IMG/VR virus record: IMGVR_UViG_3300023176_002924
Coordinates: 1 to 23,948 of that record
Source: a virus
Strand: one strand, 5' to 3'
DNA: 23,948 nucleotides
The notes under the pieces are model-generated. The model was not told where the DNA came from and did no database searches. It was given only the letters and a program-made list of their open reading frames with translations. Shown piece after piece: positions 4,903 through 17,571 of this stretch. The first letter of the stretch is position 1, and each line of letters opens with the position of its first letter. The position numbers and the translations under genes are program-made.

Positions 4903-5676
4903 TTAACCTGCGCTATTTCTAGATTTTAAACATCTACCATTGTTAATTGGTAAATATTTTTCATTTATATCCATTTTTAATTTTAGAATCATATCTGATT
5001 CTTTTTTTGCAATTTGTTCAATGTTTCTAATATATTTATAATTCAAATGATCTGTGTACTCTAATAAACGATTAAAATTATATGTCCATGCTTCTGCAAC
5101 AGTACATCTTCCAGTTTTTACAAATTTTCTATAATCATGACATACAGCACTTAATCCCTTTACGCCATAATTTAAACAGTTCTTAGCATCAAACGCATGA
5201 TCTATTAAAGGATCTTCTTTATGTAAATAGTTTATTGGCATATCTGTTACTGCCACTTTACTTAAAAATCCGGAATCTTGTTCAGGAATATAATTAAATA
5301 AGAATGGATTTAATATAAAAAATGATAAATCTGCTATTCCAGGATTTGCTTTTATTCTTAAATTATTATAATAACTTGCAAGATTTGAATCTTTTGAAAA
5401 AGTATATCTTTTATTTTTATAAAACGCAAAATTCGAATTGCAAATAGAATTATATTGTAAATTAATTAAATTTAGATCGCATATAATTCCACTGGCCAAG
5501 GCAATAGTTGGTCTTGTACAATTTTTTAATACAGTATTAACTTTTTTATTATTTTCACATTGAATAATTGACCATTTCCAATCTGGAGTATTTTTTTTCA
5601 AAGAATTAATAGTTAAAGGTAAAAGATCATTATCATTATTTAATATGATAACATCAAATTTTTGAATGTTGCTCAT
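4903..5676 (-). CDS. Possible GT-A-like glycosyltransferase-related protein
   Basis: I place the start at the ATG at 5676 (257 aa), which gives MSNIQKFDVIILNNDN. An upstream in-frame ATG at 5742 would add 22 Lys/Ile-rich residues and push the overlap with the preceding gene to 89 nt. The chosen start has GAGG upstream and a 23-nt overlap. The opening DVIILNNDNDLLPLTINSLKKNTPDWKWSII resembles the first beta-alpha-beta of family 2 type glycosyltransferases (vsvIilN...Sl). No clear DxD motif is seen, although TDMPINYLHKEDP in the middle might hold acidic ligands. The C-terminal third is helical and charged. Function is therefore tentative, but coding is supported by tight packing in the operon and the adjacent glycosyltransferase-like gene. 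Confidence 0.75.
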   Translation of the reverse strand: MSNIQKFDVIILNNDNDLLPLTINSLKKNTPDWKWSIIQCENNKKVNTVLKNCTRPTIALASGIICDLNLINLQYNSICNSNFAFYKNKRYTFSKDSNLASYYNNLRIKANPGIADLSFFILNPFLFNYIPEQDSGFLSKVAVTDMPINYLHKEDPLIDHAFDAKNCLNYGVKGLSAVCHDYRKFVKTGRCTVAEAWTYNFNRLLEYTDHLNYKYIRNIEQIAKKESDMILKLKMDINEKYLPINNGRCLKSRNSAG

Positions 5677-6565
5677 GTTCAAATTTATCCTCAAAATATT
5701 TAAAATAATTATAAATTCTTTCTTCTTGATTTTTACTATCAACTGAAATCAATCCGTTAAAATTACAAGAAAATATTGATTTCAAATCTTGTTGTATTTC
5801 TTTTTTCATTTCGTTTGGATTTTTTTTATCAAAATATATATGCTTATAAAAATTGGAATAAGTATATGATCCACGTTCTTTTCCAACGTATGCTGTATCT
5901 AACCCTTTAATAAAGGCGATAAGGCCCATTTCAGTATTTTCACAAAATCCAACTTTATTACAATTAGCAAGAATTTCATGTCCGGACAATTCTTTATTGA
6001 TAATGTTATTTTTTCCAAATTTATACTGTAGATGAGATAACATAGATTCAGGTGTTATAGGATGACACTTTATTTTAGCATTTTCACTTTTTATTAATTG
6101 CGTTATTTTATCTTCATCTACAATTTTATTGTAAATATTGTTGCCGGGTAAAAATATAACAAAATCGTTATAATCTTTATTTCGCGTAGGTCTCAATGAA
6201 TATTTGTCGACATGTTTCTCATATAAAATGTTGAAAATATTTTCACCATCTTCATTAATTTTTGTCTTTTTACTTTCTTTAATTATTTCAGAATTTCTTA
6301 ATCTAGATGAACATCTAATATATACAAATTTACCTAAACAATCTGTATAAAAATATCCAGAAATTTTATTATCATTTCGAGAGGAATAAGAAACATCATA
6401 TTCTAATTTCGTTTTTCTTTCTTCAATTTCTTTAAATGGTAATTTTTCTCGTAATTTTGTTAATTCAACGTCATTACTAACAGATCTTAACGCGGTACCA
6501 GATTTAAAAAAATGTGCAGATATATTTCCTAAATTGTCATCACTCGCTAGAAATTTTAGTGGCAT
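5654..6565 (-). CDS. Possible GT-B / capsule-synthesis-like protein
   Basis: This 303-aa protein has no confident family. The region 134-230 resembles the C-terminal half of GT-B proteins such as polysaccharide or CDP-glycerol transferases: FVIFLPGNN, then IKCHPITPES (the 'K.HP' signature, HP at 168-169), then SGHEILANCNKVGFCENTEMGLIAFIKGLDTAYVG (residues 194-228). The last stretch matches the pattern in which a cluster of small residues and a conserved Glu precede a helix and 'GkPv'. The N-terminal 130 residues are charged and unassigned. The ATG overlaps the preceding 56-aa ORF by 26 nt and has GAGG about 9 nt upstream. Together with the next gene it may glycosylate a virion or host surface component, which is inference from motif shape and position only. 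Confidence 0.72.
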   Translation of the reverse strand: MPLKFLASDDNLGNISAHFFKSGTALRSVSNDVELTKLREKLPFKEIEERKTKLEYDVSYSSRNDNKISGYFYTDCLGKFVYIRCSSRLRNSEIIKESKKTKINEDGENIFNILYEKHVDKYSLRPTRNKDYNDFVIFLPGNNIYNKIVDEDKITQLIKSENAKIKCHPITPESMLSHLQYKFGKNNIINKELSGHEILANCNKVGFCENTEMGLIAFIKGLDTAYVGKERGSYTYSNFYKHIYFDKKNPNEMKKEIQQDLKSIFSCNFNGLISVDSKNQEERIYNYFKYFEDKFEHEQHSKI

Positions 6566-6721: not shown

Positions 6722-9523
6722 TTATAGTGTCCAAGTATTACCATCCCAAGTCTGAGGAATTAATGTATCTAACGTTGTATCGTATACTGTTAACGTAGTT
6801 CTATTAGTATCTATATCAGTATTATAACCAGTATCAAATACCGTTAACGTAGCTCTAGTAGTAATTCTGTCTGTATCATATCCAGTATCAAACGCTGTTA
6901 ACGTAGTTCTAGTAGTATCTATATCAGTATTATAACCAGTATCAAATGCGGTCAGCGTAGTTCTAGTAGTATCTATATCAGTATTATAACCAGTATCAAA
7001 CGCTGTTAATGTAACTCTATCAGTGTCTCTATCAGTTGATACTGCGGTATTGAATGCCGATTCATACGCTGTTACAGTAGTTCTATCCGTATTTTTGCCA
7101 GTATCAAATGCAGTTAACGTAGTTCTAGTAGTATCAATTGTCGTATTTTGACCAGTATCAAATGCCGTTAACGTAGTTCTATCCGTATTTTTGCCAGTAT
7201 CAAATACCGTTAACGTAGTTCTAGTAGTAGCAATATTAGTACCAAATACTGAATCATACGCTGTTACAGTAGTTCTATTGGTTGCTATTGCAGTATTAAA
7301 TGCTGATTCATACGCTGTTACAGTTTGTCTATCAGTATTATAACCAGTATCAAATACCGTTAACGTAGTTCTACTAGTTCCTATTGCCGTATTGAATCCT
7401 GATTCATACGCTGTTACAGTAGTTCTATCCGTATTTTGTCCAGTCTCAAACACTGTTAATGTTTCTATGTTTGTTTCTACTGCAGTATTAAACGCTGATT
7501 CATACGCTGTTACAGTAGTTCTATCCGTATTTTTTCCAGTCTCAAACACTGTTAATGTAATTACATTGGTTTCTACTGCGGTATTAAACGCTGAATCGTA
7601 TGCTGTAATCGTATCTCTATTCGTATTTCTTAGAGTCTCAAATGCAGTTAACGTAGTTCTAGTAGTATCTTTGGTCGTATTGGCGCCAGTATCAAATACC
7701 GTTAGTGTAGTTTTAGTAGTACTAATATTAGTACCAAATCCTGATTCATATGCTGTAACTGTATTTCTATTAGTTCCTACTGCGGTATTAAATGATGATT
7801 CATATGCTGTAACTGTATTTCTATTAGTTGATACTGCGGTATTAAATGCTGATTCATACGCGGTAACTGTAGCTTTATTAGTTTCTACTGCGGTATTGAA
7901 TGACGAATCATACGCCGTAACAGTTGATCTATTAGTTGAGACAGAGGATGTGGCCCTATTGATCTGAAATGACCCGCCACCAAATTTATCAGATTGAATT
8001 AACGGTCCTTTGTAATAAGTAAATCCATCAGGATGCGCATAGCCGCTCAGGATCAGTGGGCCACTGTATTTTTGTACCGATGCCCAGATAACAGAGGTGG
8101 TCGCAGTACCTGATTGGGCCCAAACATACGAGCCGGCGACTATCGTATTTGGTCCTTGCGCGCCTGTAGTATTAAATACCGTCAATGTAGCTCTAGTAGT
8201 AGCAATATTAGTATTTTGTCCAGTCTCAAACACTGTTAATGTAGATCTAGTAGTACTAATATTAGTATTCAAACCCGTCTCAAACGCTGTAAGTGTAGTT
8301 TTAGTAGTATCTTTGGTCGTATTGGCGCCAGTATCAAATACCGTTAGTGTAGTTCTAGTAGTATTGATATTAGTATTAAACGCTGATTCATACGCGGTAA
8401 CTGTAGCTCTATTAGTTCCTACTGCGGTATTAAATGCCGATTCATATGCTGTAATCGTATCTTTATTCGTATCTCTTAGAGTCTCAAACGCTGTAAGTGT
8501 AGTTCTAGTAGTAGCAATATTAGTATCTTGACCAGTCTCAAACACCGTTAATGTTTCTATGTTTGTTTCTACTGCAGTATTAAACGCTGTAATAGTATTT
8601 TTAGTAGTATCTTTGGTCGTATTTTGTCCAGTCTCAAACACTGTTAATGTAATTATATTGGTTTCTACTGCGGTATTGAATGCTGTAATAGTATTTTTAG
8701 TAGTATCAATATTAGTATCTTTACCAGTATCAAATGCTGTAATCGTATCTTTATTGGTTGCTACTGCAGTGTTGAATGCTGTAATAGTAGATTTAGTAGT
8801 ATCAATTGTCGTATCTTGACCAGTATTAAACACCGTTAGTGTAGTTTTAGTAGTAGCAATATTAGTATTAAACGCTGAATCGTATGCTGTAATCGTATTT
8901 TTGTTGGTTTCTACTGCAGTGTTGAATGCTGTAATCGTATTTCTGTTGGTTTCTATTGCAGTATTGAATGCCGATTCATATGCTGTAATCGTATCACGAT
9001 TAGTTTCTACTGCAGTATTAAACGCTGTAACCGTATCTCTAGTAGTATCAATTGTCGTATCTTGACCAGTATCAAACACCGTATTAAAAGCAGTAATCGT
9101 ATCACGATTAGTTTCTACTGCAGTATTGAATGCTGAAACAAAAGCAGTAACCGTATTACGATTAGTTTCTACTGCAGTATTGAATGCTGAAACAAAAGCA
9201 GTAACCGTATTACGATTAGTTTCTACTGCAGTATCAAACGCGGTAATAAATGCAGTTACTGTAGCTTTATTGGTTGCTACTGCGGTATTAAATGCTGATA
9301 CGAAAGCAGTAAGAGTAGTACGATTCGTATTGAATGTAGTAAGGAATAATGTATCAATTGTAGCATTATAAAAATCACCTAAAGAAATAGCGCCAGTAGG
9401 TTTAGCTGGATCTGGAAATTGTCGTACATAATTAATGTTTAGACTGATACTACTATTGCTAGTATTACCCATCTCGACATTAATGTCAGACATTGATATT
9501 GGGCCTGAACCTTGTAGCGCCAT
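6722..9523 (-). CDS. 933-aa Thr-rich repetitive tail-fibre rod
   Basis: Residues 1-57 (MALQGSGPISMSDINVEMGN...GAISLGDFYNA) form the short N-terminal virion-attachment module seen in many marine phage structural proteins. From residue 67 to 920 the protein is almost entirely repeats of the form N/T-R/K-x-T-[VIL]-T-A-[FY]...T. I parsed 45 complete units: 30 of 18, 13 of 14 and 2 of 22 residues, plus one partial unit. Residues 453-530 are a non-repetitive insert (WAQSG, GYAHPDGF, KFGGGSF). The end is LIPQTWDGNTWTL with no chaperone domain. Hydrophobic spacings 3-4-7, 3-4-4-7 and 3-4-4-4-7 fit heptads mixed with hendecads or pentadecads, hence a trimeric rod. A late promoter and AAGAG ribosome binding site precede the ATG. 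The preceding gene encodes an S74 chaperone. Confidence 0.9.
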   Translation of the reverse strand: MALQGSGPISMSDINVEMGNTSNSSISLNINYVRQFPDPAKPTGAISLGDFYNATIDTLFLTTFNTNRTTLTAFVSAFNTAVATNKATVTAFITAFDTAVETNRNTVTAFVSAFNTAVETNRNTVTAFVSAFNTAVETNRDTITAFNTVFDTGQDTTIDTTRDTVTAFNTAVETNRDTITAYESAFNTAIETNRNTITAFNTAVETNKNTITAYDSAFNTNIATTKTTLTVFNTGQDTTIDTTKSTITAFNTAVATNKDTITAFDTGKDTNIDTTKNTITAFNTAVETNIITLTVFETGQNTTKDTTKNTITAFNTAVETNIETLTVFETGQDTNIATTRTTLTAFETLRDTNKDTITAYESAFNTAVGTNRATVTAYESAFNTNINTTRTTLTVFDTGANTTKDTTKTTLTAFETGLNTNISTTRSTLTVFETGQNTNIATTRATLTVFNTTGAQGPNTIVAGSYVWAQSGTATTSVIWASVQKYSGPLILSGYAHPDGFTYYKGPLIQSDKFGGGSFQINRATSSVSTNRSTVTAYDSSFNTAVETNKATVTAYESAFNTAVSTNRNTVTAYESSFNTAVGTNRNTVTAYESGFGTNISTTKTTLTVFDTGANTTKDTTRTTLTAFETLRNTNRDTITAYDSAFNTAVETNVITLTVFETGKNTDRTTVTAYESAFNTAVETNIETLTVFETGQNTDRTTVTAYESGFNTAIGTSRTTLTVFDTGYNTDRQTVTAYESAFNTAIATNRTTVTAYDSVFGTNIATTRTTLTVFDTGKNTDRTTLTAFDTGQNTTIDTTRTTLTAFDTGKNTDRTTVTAYESAFNTAVSTDRDTDRVTLTAFDTGYNTDIDTTRTTLTAFDTGYNTDIDTTRTTLTAFDTGYDTDRITTRATLTVFDTGYNTDIDTNRTTLTVYDTTLDTLIPQTWDGNTWTL
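6764..7933 (-). repeat. Second in-frame repeat array of the rod
   Basis: This region codes for residues 531-920: 23 units (15 of 18, 7 of 14, 1 of 22 residues), nearly the same make-up as the first array. Near the 3' end successive units are close to identical at the DNA level (for example around 6890-7000), pointing to recent duplication or homogenisation. The 22-residue unit here carries its extra tetrad (DRDT) at the front, unlike the one in the first array. Confidence 0.9.
7934..8167 (-). other. Non-repetitive, G+C-rich domain inserted in the rod
   Basis: This stretch codes for residues 453-530 between the two repeat arrays. It is Gly/Tyr/Trp-rich and has no Thr repeat. By hand count, 8041-8160 is about 54% G+C, against about one third in 8221-8280. 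The difference suggests a separately acquired domain, perhaps a receptor-binding or kink element in the rod. I recognise no family. Confidence 0.75.
8168..9325 (-). repeat. First in-frame repeat array of the rod (42/54/66-nt units)
   Basis: This region codes for residues 67-452 of the 933-aa protein: 22 complete units (15 of 18, 6 of 14, 1 of 22 residues) and a 10-residue partial unit. All unit lengths differ by multiples of four residues (12 nt). DNA similarity between units is high in places, so slippage and unequal recombination are likely. The reading frame is kept throughout, which marks it as a coding repeat and not a CRISPR or iteron array. Confidence 0.9.
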
Positions 9524-9542: not shown

Positions 9543-10082
9543 TTAACTATTTATAGTTTTAAGTTCATCTATTTGTTTTTGTTGTTCTTTGACAACTTCA
9601 ATGAGCAAAGCTACTATTCTGTCATATTTTACGGCTAATAATCCATTTTCTCTTTCTGCTACAAGTTCAGGTAAAACATTTTGTAATTCTTGTGCAATAA
9701 CTCCTACATCTGCTTTTCTAATATTATAATCATCAACTCCGCCTACACTTTCTAAATGGGCATCAGTCCAATCAAAGTTATATCCATTTAAAGCTTTTAC
9801 TTTTTCAATAGGATTTTCAATATTTCTTACATTTTCTTTTAACCTAGAATCAGATGAATAAAACGCAGTTATATCGCCTGTTGCAGTAATATTGCCAGTA
9901 ACTGAAATTCCTGCAGAAAAAGTCATCGCACCTGCGGCGGTATCTGCAACATCACTTCTCAAAAAGTTTGCGCCTTCAATTCCATCCACCGTATCTGCAT
10001 TTAATCCAGACCCAGGCCCATCATTACCGGCGTGCCAAACAAGTGAACCACCTATAGTTGTTCCTGTTCTAAGTTTCGACAT
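9543..10082 (-). CDS. 179-aa near-minimal S74 intramolecular-chaperone fibre protein
   Basis: Residues 16-43 (WHAGNDGPGSGLNADTVDGIEGANFLRSD) are a tail-fibre repeat module, and 44-73 is a short beta-rich linker (GISVTGNITATGD). From about 76 the protein is a Peptidase_S74 chaperone. SSDSRLKEN at 76-84 holds the conserved Ser for self-cleavage. GYNFDW, VGVIAQELQNVLPELV and VKYDRIVALLIEVVKEQQKQIDELK (final trimeric coiled coil) are all family signatures. In S74 proteins such as endosialidase the domain trimerises and folds a beta-helical fibre, then cuts itself off. Here almost nothing remains to be folded in cis, so it may be a very short fibre or act on a neighbouring fibre. AGAG precedes the ATG, which overlaps the 54-aa ORF by 14 nt. 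Confidence 0.93.
   Translation of the reverse strand: MSKLRTGTTIGGSLVWHAGNDGPGSGLNADTVDGIEGANFLRSDVADTAAGAMTFSAGISVTGNITATGDITAFYSSDSRLKENVRNIENPIEKVKALNGYNFDWTDAHLESVGGVDDYNIRKADVGVIAQELQNVLPELVAERENGLLAVKYDRIVALLIEVVKEQQKQIDELKTINS
9548..9555 (-). promoter_or_regulatory. T4-type late promoter before the 933-aa rod
   Basis: The minus strand reads TATAAATA, the exact T4 late (gp55-dependent) -10 box. It lies inside the last codons of the preceding S74 gene, 24 nt before the rod ATG. Confidence 0.7.
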
Positions 10083-10233
10083 TATTATTCTCTATTAAAT
10101 TAAGTAATTCTTGCATTCTTTCAATATATTGATTTTCAATAGATCGTCTTTCTTCTTCAGTATTTCCTAGATCTATTTGAGTATTTATAAAACCAATTTC
10201 GTTTAATGCTGCATCGATTTCTTCTTGTGTCAT
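10069..10233 (-). CDS. Small 54-aa helical protein
   Basis: The ORF starts at an ATG that overlaps the TGA stop of the 502-aa gene by three bases (ATGA arrangement) and ends 14 nt inside the S74 gene. The sequence MTQEEIDAALNEIGFINTQI followed by a Glu/Arg/Gln-rich helix (TEEERRSIENQYIERMQELLNLIEN) predicts a short acidic helical hairpin or coiled coil. AGGG-type purines directly upstream could serve as a ribosome binding site. Coupled translation with both neighbours supports a real gene. I recognise no family. An assembly helper for the adjoining fibre proteins is a reasonable guess. Confidence 0.72.
   Translation of the reverse strand: MTQEEIDAALNEIGFINTQIDLGNTEEERRSIENQYIERMQELLNLIENNNVET
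10182..10189 (-). promoter_or_regulatory. Possible late promoter box inside the 54-aa ORF
   Basis: The minus strand reads TATAAATA about 100 nt before the S74 gene start. It is an exact late box, but it is inside a coding region (codons for FINT), so it could be chance. Confidence 0.35.
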
Positions 10234-11738
10234 ACCCTTACCCTCAAATACGCTTTACGTTTATACGTACTATCACTAGCGCCAGAACCATCTTCTTTAA
10301 TTAATCTCGGTGTTCCTGCCGTGTTTATACCTATTGCTGCATATGTATTTCTTACATCAGCAGCATTAGTATTCCATAGATAAATTGTCCCATAACCTTT
10401 TTTCCACATAAAAGATCCGGCATTTACTAATAAATTTCGTAAATTTGGATTATTATCGTGCAATAATTCAGTACCTATTGCATCGTAGGATGTTAGAATC
10501 CAATAATTACCATTAGCTACACTATTGATAGCACTTGCTAAATTATCTGCTGCAGTGCCTGAATCATGTATATCATACGTTGTATTTGAAACTATTCCAA
10601 ACGTAGATCCATTTACGACAGTTAATTGTAATCCTCTTCCTGTTGCAACACCGGTCGAAGAACCATTTACAGTAACTGCTCTATTACCTTCTACAGCAAA
10701 AACGTCTGTACCGTCATCGCTTCTTGCCTGGCCAACACCCGCTGTTCCGGTTGCAGTGATTTCAGTGCCTTCAACAATTCTATCTGCTAACAGCGTATCA
10801 ATACTTCTATCATATTTAAACCTACTCGTATATGTAGGCTCAGTAATTTCTGTTAACTCTAAGTTATCAATATGAACATGAGTTCCTCGTGCATTTTGTG
10901 CTTGATACGTAAATCCAATTTTTAAATCATTATATAAATTAAAATATCCTGCGGCTGCACCCCCTGTATATTTTGCGTCATATGCTCCAGTGGTTGGGTT
11001 ATTAACCCACTCTGTTTCTGGATCTGTTCCTAGTGTTGGTGCGGGTCGTGCATCCCTTTTTCTATATAAATTTCCATTATAACGAATTCCATAATCACCG
11101 CCAGACGGATATTGAGTAGTTGAGTTCCAATCATATGCTCCTGCTACCCAGTTTAAATAAGTATTGCTCACCGTAAATTCATATGAAAAATGCTGCCATT
11201 CCCAAGTATCAAATGCTGATATAGTAGACGACCATGGTGATGTTAAATTAACTCCATTTGAAGACCATCCAACAGTATATGCAATATAATTCTGCATGCC
11301 GTAACCACCACTATATCCGCGATAGTCATAACTGAATCTAAATTTTTTCCCATCAGTTCTTAAAGTAGTTGGATCCGGAAATAAACGCATCCCTCCCCAA
11401 GTATTACTACTCGCAATATCTGGGGCTCTTTTAATGACATACCCATAACGATTGCCTGCTATAGTATTACGTTCACGACTCGATACAGATATATTCGCTT
11501 GTGTATATGTACCATAATCTCCGCCAATTGTTCCAGTATCTGGAGATTTAGTAGGTGATTTATCATAAATTATATCATACCCTTCATCTACATCATATAC
11601 TTGAAGATCACCATTCGATTTAAGCTTCATTTGGCCAGCTGGCAAACTTGCAGTAGTATCAATTTCTCCACCACCACTAGTACCATTGACCAAAGTTAAT
11701 TCATTATAATTTTTTCTATAAATTAATTTACTAGTCAT
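10230..11738 (-). CDS. 502-aa fibre-associated protein with jelly-roll-like and GG (FAM3/ILEI-like) domains
   Basis: The middle (about 85-300) is rich in Trp/Tyr and beta strands and ends in HVHIDNLELTEI, the usual closing strand of carbohydrate-binding jelly rolls. Residues 367-485 fit the GG domain: GRGLQLTVVNGSTFGIVSNTTYD, a helix (AADNLASAINSV), NGNYWILTSYDAIGTELL, LRNLLVNAGS, then NTYAAIGI and a basic tail. This domain is known from eukaryotic FAM3/ILEI proteins and from the T4 long-tail-fibre hinge protein gp35. By analogy the protein may be a hinge or connector, or a glycan-binding tip. It starts one base after the stop of the 1392-aa fibre, consistent with partners in one fibre. The GG call rests on motif pattern only. 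Confidence 0.85.
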   Translation of the reverse strand: MTSKLIYRKNYNELTLVNGTSGGGEIDTTASLPAGQMKLKSNGDLQVYDVDEGYDIIYDKSPTKSPDTGTIGGDYGTYTQANISVSSRERNTIAGNRYGYVIKRAPDIASSNTWGGMRLFPDPTTLRTDGKKFRFSYDYRGYSGGYGMQNYIAYTVGWSSNGVNLTSPWSSTISAFDTWEWQHFSYEFTVSNTYLNWVAGAYDWNSTTQYPSGGDYGIRYNGNLYRKRDARPAPTLGTDPETEWVNNPTTGAYDAKYTGGAAAGYFNLYNDLKIGFTYQAQNARGTHVHIDNLELTEITEPTYTSRFKYDRSIDTLLADRIVEGTEITATGTAGVGQARSDDGTDVFAVEGNRAVTVNGSSTGVATGRGLQLTVVNGSTFGIVSNTTYDIHDSGTAADNLASAINSVANGNYWILTSYDAIGTELLHDNNPNLRNLLVNAGSFMWKKGYGTIYLWNTNAADVRNTYAAIGINTAGTPRLIKEDGSGASDSTYKRKAYLRVRV

Positions 11739-15968: not shown

Positions 15969-15976
15969 TATTTATA
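15969..15976 (-). promoter_or_regulatory. T4-type late promoter before the 1392-aa fibre
   Basis: The minus strand reads TATAAATA. It overlaps the TAA stop of the 2OG oxygenase gene and leaves a leader of about 50 nt before the fibre ATG at 15918. Confidence 0.7.
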
Positions 15977-16598
15977 CAAACTTTGGCCCGTAAACCCACC
16001 AAACAATTGACTTTCTTAGTCCAGTTTTTACTCTACCAACTCGATGTAAAGTCCAGGAAGGAAATGCAATTAAAGTATTTCTTTTTTGTTCTAACGTAGT
16101 TAGTACACCAGAATCCATTATTTGGAATTTTCCACCTTTATATTCTTCTGGATCTGATAGAATTAAACTAAAACTTAATTTTCTATGCATTGCAGAATTC
16201 ATTTCTAAATTTGTATTTAAATCTGAAAATTTATCACAATGTAAAGAATAGTGTTGACCTTTATAATACGATGTCAATTGTATAAAATTAAAACCAGTTA
16301 GATTAAATCCAAAATAAGCATCATTGATACTTTCTGTTAATGTATAGAGAGAATGGAACGCAGCAATAGATAATTCATTTGTATCATCGTAGTTATAAAA
16401 ACTTAAATTAGAAGATCTAATTTTTGAGTCTTTTATTCCATCACTACTGTCGATACCATCTTTTCTTATTGCTTGAGGATCTGTTGAATTAAAATATTCT
16501 TCTAAAATATTTAATTCGTCTTCTGGCATAGCATTTTCAAAAATTAAATAATCTTCTTGACATAATAATTTTTTTTCTGGATAGGGCGTTAATGGCAT
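15972..16598 (-). CDS. 2OG-Fe(II) oxygenase
   Basis: The 208-aa protein belongs to the 2-oxoglutarate/Fe(II) dioxygenases, which hydroxylate proteins, nucleic acids or small molecules using O2 and 2-oxoglutarate. The facial triad is visible as H120-x-D122 (GQHYSLHCDKF) and H185 (FPSWTLHRVGRV), and R195 (TGLRKSIVWW) fits the 2-oxoglutarate-binding Arg. The core strands RKLSFSLILSDPEEYKGGKFQI are typical of the P4H/PiuC-like branch. The length is normal for a phage single-domain enzyme. Such genes are frequent in marine T4-like phages. Here it sits alone inside the fibre module, behind a late-promoter-like box, so it is likely made with virion proteins. Its substrate cannot be read from the sequence. 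Confidence 0.92.
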   Translation of the reverse strand: MPLTPYPEKKLLCQEDYLIFENAMPEDELNILEEYFNSTDPQAIRKDGIDSSDGIKDSKIRSSNLSFYNYDDTNELSIAAFHSLYTLTESINDAYFGFNLTGFNFIQLTSYYKGQHYSLHCDKFSDLNTNLEMNSAMHRKLSFSLILSDPEEYKGGKFQIMDSGVLTTLEQKRNTLIAFPSWTLHRVGRVKTGLRKSIVWWVYGPKFV

Positions 16599-16623: not shown

Positions 16624-16631
16624 TATTTATG
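16624..16631 (-). promoter_or_regulatory. Variant late promoter before the oxygenase gene
   Basis: The minus strand reads CATAAATA, one base from the T4 late box. It overlaps the stop codon of the 314-aa S74 gene and lies 25 nt before the oxygenase ATG, the same geometry as the exact boxes. Confidence 0.5.
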
Positions 16632-17571
16632 TATTTTTTAAAGCATCTATTTCGGCTTTGAGTGCTTTGCACACTGATATTAAAAACGCAGATAGTTTTT
16701 GATAATCTACAGCTTTAAATCCATTTTCACGAGTTTCAACTAATGTAGGTTGTATTTCTTCAATTTCTTGTGCAATTACACCAATAGCGTGACCGGTTTG
16801 TTGATGAATATCTGGAAAAGGAATCCAATCATATTCATATCCATTTATTTGATCTAACTTAGATAAAGCATCAGTGATAGGAGTAATATTTTCTTTTAAT
16901 CTTTGATCCGAAGAAGCAAACGCTGTAACATCACCGGTACAAGAAAGTGCACCTACGATTCTACTATTTCCATTAACATGTAAAGCATATGCGCCGGGAG
17001 CAGTATTAACGCCTACTCTAGTTGCAGTTGTATCAACGTGTAAAATTGGAGTTGCAACAGCACCAAATACTGTATTTCCACCAGTAACATTAAGTACTTC
17101 ATCTGCAGAAAGATATTTAAAAACTACGTCTGAACCAGTTCCAAAGTTGATAGCTTGATCGTCAACTAAAGTAACACTACCTTTTCTCATACGAACATTT
17201 GCAGCTATATGATTTTCAGGATCAGGATCAGAAACATCACCAAAACTCAATGTTTTTTCTGCGGTACCAAAATATTCATCATCTTCATCTGAGCGTAAAA
17301 ACTGGCTTGAAGATAAACCTCCGACTGCAGATCCATTTACATTAGTTAATTGAGAACCATTTCCAAAGAAATACGGCGCTACAACATTTGCAGCAGCTTC
17401 AATAGCATTTTGTGTATTTCCACTGTGTGATTGCCCAATCGACATTACGCCATTAGTACCATCAACATAAAATTTATTAGTGTTTACTGTAATATTAGCA
17501 TCACCTATAACGACGTCGCCGTCTGTAGTTAAGCCTTCTAATACTTCAAATTTTATTGCTTGATTTGCCAT
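16627..17571 (-). CDS. 314-aa tail-fibre protein with C-terminal S74 chaperone
   Basis: Residues 1-215 are beta-rich fibre sequence (VVIGDANITVNTNKFYVDG, PYFFGNGSQLTNVNGSAV, RVGVNTAPGAYALHVNG), of the type found in fibres folded by S74 domains. The chaperone begins at about 220: SSDQRLKEN (220-228) has the conserved cleavage Ser, GYEYDW follows, then GHAIGVIAQEIEEIQPTLV and a closing helix KLSAFLISVCKALKAEIDAL for trimerisation. On family knowledge, the last 95 or so residues are probably removed after folding. The gene begins 3 nt after the 137-aa gene. It is clearly related to the 179-aa S74 protein over the chaperone but has a much longer fibre part. Confidence 0.94.
   Translation of the reverse strand: MANQAIKFEVLEGLTTDGDVVIGDANITVNTNKFYVDGTNGVMSIGQSHSGNTQNAIEAAANVVAPYFFGNGSQLTNVNGSAVGGLSSSQFLRSDEDDEYFGTAEKTLSFGDVSDPDPENHIAANVRMRKGSVTLVDDQAINFGTGSDVVFKYLSADEVLNVTGGNTVFGAVATPILHVDTTATRVGVNTAPGAYALHVNGNSRIVGALSCTGDVTAFASSDQRLKENITPITDALSKLDQINGYEYDWIPFPDIHQQTGHAIGVIAQEIEEIQPTLVETRENGFKAVDYQKLSAFLISVCKALKAEIDALKNT

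Follow-up and report, generated by a model that had tools for sequence, protein, structure and literature searches.

The window analysed here, a 23,948-nucleotide stretch from a marine virus, carries on its minus strand an open reading frame (ORF) for a Thr-rich repeat protein of 933 amino acids (Table 1). Its gene content marks the window as part of a T4-like myovirus genome: genes for a terminase, a tail-sheath stabiliser, head closure and an adaptor lie downstream of the rod gene, and fibre genes with S74 chaperone domains lie upstream. A 106-kb contig was 99.99% identical to the window over 14.8 kb. The upstream run of fibre genes includes two separate S74 (chaperone of endosialidase) fibre proteins (9543–10082 and 16627–17571), a 502-aa fibre-like protein (10230–11738) whose C-terminal half matched an ILEI-type domain (PF15711) just above the cut-off, and, between fibre genes, a 208-aa ORF (15972–16598) that by eye resembles a 2-oxoglutarate/Fe(II) oxygenase. 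Downstream of the rod, two ORFs (4903–5742 and 5654–6565) overlap by ~90 bases as listed; the former is listed with a TTG start, and its true start is probably later. The rod protein itself had no sequence match in Pfam, PHROG or PDB.

Using the strict anchor T[LVI]T[AV][FYV], we found 46 unit starts in the protein, spaced by 18 (30 times), 14 (12 times), 22 (twice) and 88 residues (once). Residues 56–69 form a 13th 14-mer with a degenerate anchor (IDTLFLTTFNTNRT), and the spacing of 88 residues (446–533) comprises a normal unit start followed by a non-repeat domain. The unit lengths given in the original prediction were recovered (30 units of 18, 12–13 of 14 and two of 22 residues), and they differ by multiples of four residues throughout. 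Its further claim that the units sum to the protein length holds only after the 55-aa N-terminus, the central insert and the C-terminal tail are excluded, and it mentioned neither the ~75-residue non-repeat central domain nor the mirror-symmetric unit order. The N-terminal segment, which had no match in the phage records searched, is presumed from its position to be the base or anchor.

Table 1. Features of the Thr-rich repeat protein and its gene (nucleotide positions are those of the window).
Feature	Residues	Positions	Strand	Basis
Whole gene, Thr-rich repeat protein, read as a folded-back fibre		6722..9523	-	Open reading frame
N-terminal segment (MALQGSGPISMSDINVEMG...ISLGDFYNAT)	1–55	9359..9523	-	Non-repeat
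Arm 1	56–452	8168..9358	-	Unit parse; Thr rail 58–452
Tip domain (TGAQGPNTIVAGSYVWAQSG...GFTYYKGPLIQSDKFGGGSFQINRA)	453–525	7949..8167	-	Interrupts the Thr rail; matched by profile of relatives' tips
Arm 2, arm 1 unit lengths reversed	526–922	6758..7948	-	Steps mirrored at i+j=982
C-terminal tail (...WDGNTWTL)	923–933	6725..6757	-	By-eye likeness to YWDGSQWTED of relatives
22-residue unit, arm 1	142–163	9035..9100	-	Unit parse; pairs with the sole other 22-mer
22-residue unit, arm 2	816–837	7013..7078	-	Unit parse; mirror partner of 142–163

Both arms follow the same grammar, a rail of Thr residues in 4-residue steps broken by single 2-residue steps (2-steps), so that every unit measures 2+4k residues; rods were parsed by this rail, Thr density alone being too coarse. 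In the window protein, the rail positions are 92% Thr and 8% Ser, the 2-steps hold Leu, Val or Ile with no exception, and the interior of each 4-step holds a large residue, mostly Phe, Tyr, Arg, Lys, Ile or Val. From residue 56 to 452, the units of arm 1 measure 14, 18, 18, 18, 18, 22, 14, 18, 14, 18, 18, 14, 18, 14, 18, 14, 18, 14, 18, 18, 18, 18 and 18 residues. Read outward from the central domain, arm 1 gives 18, 18, 18, 18, 18, 14, 18, 14, 18, 14, 18, 14, 18, 18, 14, 18, 14, 22, 18, 18, 18 and 18, and arm 2 gives the same list. All 23 of the 23 2-steps are mirrored at i+j=982, compared with a best of 20 matches in 2000 trials with shuffled unit orders; the same units allow 1,193,808 distinct orders, which makes this a ~1-in-1.2-million order. 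The original prediction proposed that the choice of tetrads could tune the local twist of the rod, which misses the main constraint: whatever unit one arm uses recurs at the mirrored position of its counterpart.

As the gene is made of tandem repeats, the mirror might be regarded as a structurally meaningless by-product of repeat expansion at the DNA level. However, the parallel (direct) register of the two arms gives only 16/23 matches, and reverse-complementing a Thr codon (ACN) never yields another Thr codon; therefore, an inverted DNA repeat cannot give the mirror, which exists at the protein level only. The residue complementarity and the two-gene mirrors described below would, in addition, need selection, and we consider this explanation scarcely credible.

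The residues that face each other across the mirror axis are complementary. With the pairing axis fixed from 2-steps only, 871 of the 1252 cases of facing large residues paired an aromatic residue with Arg/Lys (482 expected, His being counted as aromatic in this test), and three paired Arg/Lys with Arg/Lys (161 expected). The aromatic:Arg/Lys preference weakened once the axis was shifted. As a control for unit polarity, equal-length units were shuffled inside each protein: 738 aromatic:Arg/Lys pairs were observed against 606 ± 9 after shuffling, and a single Arg/Lys:Arg/Lys pair against 58 ± 5. In the window protein, the facing pairs comprised 47 aromatic:cation, one cation:cation and no aromatic:aromatic pair, with Phe-Arg (24), Phe-Ile (17), Tyr-Arg (9), Phe-Lys (8) and Tyr-Lys (6), and the facing pairs at its 2-steps were aliphatic:aliphatic in 23 of 23 cases. 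The Asn or Thr described earlier at every second core layer is only half the picture: position 17 of the 18-mers is mostly Arg or Lys and faces an aromatic residue of the other arm.

Relatives were sought among viral contigs by the DNA pattern of two 2-steps 18 residues apart. At least 119 viral-contig stretches matched, and among the matches listed most underlying ORFs were 25–50% Thr. A search with the conserved ends of relatives yielded 80 loci, and 49 ORFs were compared as complete members. The mirror was seen in dozens of viral proteins (26–47% Thr, arms of ~70–500 residues), and pairs were fully mirrored in L153 (42/42), L160 (35/35), L138 (32/32), L175 (27/27), L154 (17/17) and L072 (15/15). 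In Thr-rich cellular ORFs from a genome-contig scan, used as negative controls, the mirror was absent (z −0.8 to 1.1). Many relatives share a layout of N-terminal domain, arm, non-repeat domain, arm and a VYERLTATG..YWDGSQWTE C-terminus; of the VYER...YWDG C-terminus of the main subfamily, the window protein carries TWDGNTWTL only, and its N-terminus differs. Relatives' units include lengths of 6, 10, 26, 30 and 34 residues, all 2+4k. Thus, the steps of four in the expected 14+4k rule hold in homologues, whereas 14 as the floor does not, given the units of 6 and 10 residues. Across 30 mirrored proteins, the mean rail step was 3.28–3.58 despite units of 6 to 42 residues. Similar Thr-rich rods with little or no mirror seen within or between genes also occur (L023, L048, L071 and L274, with N-termini MPNT.. 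and MRWLWNRIDFW..); the unit parse of some of these was ambiguous.

Searches with the whole rod mostly failed, probably because low-complexity filters mask it: tblastn against phages gave Stenotrophomonas phage DLP_6 as the single match, and viral contigs gave the near-identical contig only. The window-like pattern, with an aliphatic residue at the 2-step, was found only in the same virus and in L210, a DLP_6-like mirrored rod. The VYER...WDG ends were not found in cultured relatives, and three relatives (L113, L037 and L122) matched no PHROG family. Given that no Pfam or PHROG family and no PDB sequence match was found, members of the class are probably annotated as hypothetical proteins throughout. 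We found no description of Thr-rich, palindromic or hairpin phage fibres in the literature, of which subscription journals were poorly covered. The class looks widespread in uncultured viruses.

The mirror axis, determined from unit order alone, is also locked to the termini of the relatives. We defined an offset by subtracting two residue positions from the axis, those of the conserved C-terminal Tyr and of the conserved N-terminal Trp/Phe. This offset was 7 in 31 of 46 listed proteins; the 31 range from 311 to 1074 aa but include close relatives and do not represent 31 independent events. Otherwise, this subfamily gave 6 for one protein present as three near-identical copies and 8 for L200, and a second subfamily (668–1556 aa) had an offset of 10 with the sole exception of L109. 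The constant offset indicates that the two arms are equal almost to the residue, whatever their length. Most known phage fibres are parallel trimers, and the straight parallel trimeric rod with tetrad-tuned twist read from the sequence originally would also suit the helix modelled by AF2 (see below). It leaves unexplained the equal arms, the mirrored order, the locked axis and the complementary facing residues; the half lengths, which would be independent in such a rod, are mirror-identical in the window protein, and in relatives the axis is tied to the termini. We regard this architecture as very improbable.

In some cases, a Thr-rich rod without an internal mirror is encoded next to another Thr-rich gene of the same orientation. 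In the clearest gene pair (L122; 3017–6652 and 6695–9820, encoding 1212 and 1042 aa), 58 of 59 2-steps were mirrored across the two proteins over ~1,000 residues, with 137 aromatic:cation and no cation:cation pairs. Cross-gene mirrors were also found in L013 (61/64), L031 (41/52), L117 (34/51) and L042 (14/14 in the shorter partner). The fit was weak or nil for the gene pairs of L023, L048 and L274; L023, L048 and L071 had no single-chain mirror, and for these rods a partner gene either went undetected or fitted poorly. The two-gene mirrors mean that the arms can be separate polypeptides, and they would be hard to explain by anything other than physical antiparallel pairing. By eye, the C-terminal region of the first L122 protein appeared Hint/intein-like, with no Pfam match at E 0.1.

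Taken together, these patterns make it highly probable that the window protein is an antiparallel hairpin fibre, with the tip domain at the far end and both termini at the virion. The chain would exit the virion via arm 1 (56–452), form the tip (453–525) and come back via arm 2 (526–922), placing residue i opposite residue 982−i and both termini together at the base. The arms would be held by a code in which Thr is opposite Thr at every fourth (or second) residue; between these facing Thr residues, Phe/Tyr of one arm would meet Arg/Lys (or an aliphatic residue) of the other, and at the 2-steps Leu/Val/Ile of one arm would meet an aliphatic residue of the other. If the arms are to stay in register, any change in unit length would need a mirrored match, which would keep the arm lengths equal. 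Mirror-image arms most likely mean a chain that folds back, and the single straight rod of ~0.13 micrometre proposed originally should give way to a fibre that would measure ~59 nm in its alpha form. Against the hairpin stand the single-chain AF2 models, in which arm 1 was helical without its partner arm and the arms of L113 had very low confidence, and the Thr-rich rods of the wider class that show no mirror in one chain.

A mirror-ordered chain could instead pair, fully in register, with another copy of itself. In such a straight antiparallel homodimer, arm 1 would lie on arm 2 of the other copy, and the central domains would meet in the middle of a bipolar rod of double length. The sequence is compatible with this arrangement, and the two-gene forms show that separate chains can pair. 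However, relatives that lack a tip have a short turn exactly at the axis (VVGG|KPAA, ITDGK|SSG and VVAN|KPAA), and this tight turn favours intrachain folding. Furthermore, both termini are tied to the axis, as would fit a shared base, and a tail part with two identical ends would be odd. We therefore consider the homodimer unlikely. In the tip-less members L072, L175, L176, L185, L186 and L202, the axis turn was rich in Gly, Lys, Asn or Pro.

For the tip of the hairpin, a signature common to the central domains of relatives was identified (GGFTYxRG...Y.I.R). A profile of relatives' tips matched the window protein at residues 448–534 only (i-E 1.1e-5, single sequence), and hhalign of relatives' tips against the window tip gave P 0.0015, yet a low probability; on these comparisons, we hold with moderate confidence that the tips may be related. 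The tip of L113 was predicted to be beta (AF2, pLDDT 76–87) and was the only confident part of that model. Compared with predicted viral structures, the L113 model best matched a Gp38-like receptor-recognising protein (E 5e-3, prob 1.00), and a fold search of the model against PDB gave nothing significant. In close relatives, both ends are kept and the tips differ, as expected of a receptor-binding part. Given its position, the neighbouring genes and a single weak fold match, the tip would most likely bind a receptor: it would be shown to the host surface, with the fibre acting as a receptor-binding spacer.

The evidence on the fold of the arms points in two directions. The full window fibre would be about 59 nm long if its arms are alpha and about 130 nm if they are beta. 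In the alpha version of the hairpin, an antiparallel coiled-coil with heptad/hendecad stripes would carry a beta tip. The window protein has a mean step of 3.58, units of 14, 18 and 22 residues only and Leu/Val/Ile at the start of every unit; in agreement with the 3-4-4 hydrophobic spacing reported originally, its hydrophobic periodicity is strongest at 100 degrees, with a relative power of 4.2 (0.66 at 180 degrees). Single-sequence AF2, in which the partner arm was absent, modelled residues 48–445 as almost all helix (pLDDT mostly 55–70). In contrast, most relatives have a hydrophobic peak at 180 degrees and arms of 35–47% Thr, and their mean steps of 3.28–3.45 and runs of 6-residue units lie outside or at the edge of the coiled-coil range, 10/3 being 'at the very edge' (PMC4786415). 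We give alpha arms somewhat less than an even chance.

The beta version, a long antiparallel ribbon with Thr and the large residues all on one face and several hairpins packed together, seems to us just as plausible as the alpha one. The caution about a beta form voiced in the original prediction proved apt, as the 6- and 10-residue units and tight turns of relatives fit beta. The even-only spacings of the family, its Thr content, the beta-turn-like tight loops at the axis (DGK, GGKP) and the low-confidence AF2 strands in mirrored register at the base of L113 also suit it, and AF2 with 15 sequences modelled the L113 arms without helix, at very low confidence. Against it stand the helix-like spacing and composition of the window protein and its helical AF2 model. 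Whether the class is beta with the window protein drifted to a helix-like form, or both folds occur, we judge to be about evenly balanced.

The proposed hairpin resembles SMC/Rad50/MukB proteins, in which the chain runs out, forms a central hinge domain and comes back, with equal, helical arms paired antiparallel and an ATPase at the end. The window protein shares the out-and-back chain, the central domain and the equal arms, with helix predicted only without the partner arm. We found no sequence relation between them, a Pfam search detected no ABC ATPase head at its termini, and we know of no Thr rail or mirrored unit grammar with an aromatic:Arg code in SMC/Rad50/MukB. Fibres of the T4 gp34/gp37 type and those with S74 chaperones are parallel trimers with a C-terminal tip. 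Like phage long tail fibres, the window protein lies among tail genes, combines a rod with a putative receptor-binding tip and has a Gp38-like match for a related tip; unlike them, it has the tip in the middle, and both ends are proposed to lie at the base. Similar 18/5 and 11/3 spacings and insertions of 2, 4 or 6 residues occur in trimeric alpha/beta coiled coils and autotransporter stalks (PMC4786415), but these are parallel trimers whose chain halves are not mirrored.

A cultured example is a T4-like baseplate wedge protein of DLP_6 (KU682439, AAY80_265; 1288 aa), which bears a mirrored rod (14/19 pairs, z about 10) with the Thr rail, 2+4k units, mirrored arms and aromatic:Arg pairs. It differs in that the rod is fused to a baseplate wedge domain, with an extra domain before the rod, and it is annotated as a wedge protein only; the paper on this phage (PMC5349666) places a gp7 wedge initiator at the corresponding point of the gene order. 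The Thr rail was absent from the related wedge proteins of phiM12, Cr30, Melnitz, Mosig and RHph_I1_18, which indicates that the DLP_6 fibre is an add-on at the baseplate.

These proteins probably represent a new class of viral fibres, in which two strands, from one chain or from neighbouring genes, would run antiparallel over 80 to 1,000 residues. It is likewise probable that their register is set by a residue code (Thr:Thr and aromatic:Arg/Lys), akin to base pairing. Because the mirror lets residue-level contacts be mapped from one sequence alone, the structure is directly testable. A register code that works also across two gene products would be of interest for designing long protein duplexes. 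If true, the hairpin would be a long-fibre design unlike the usual parallel trimer, with its receptor-binding domain in the middle of the chain.
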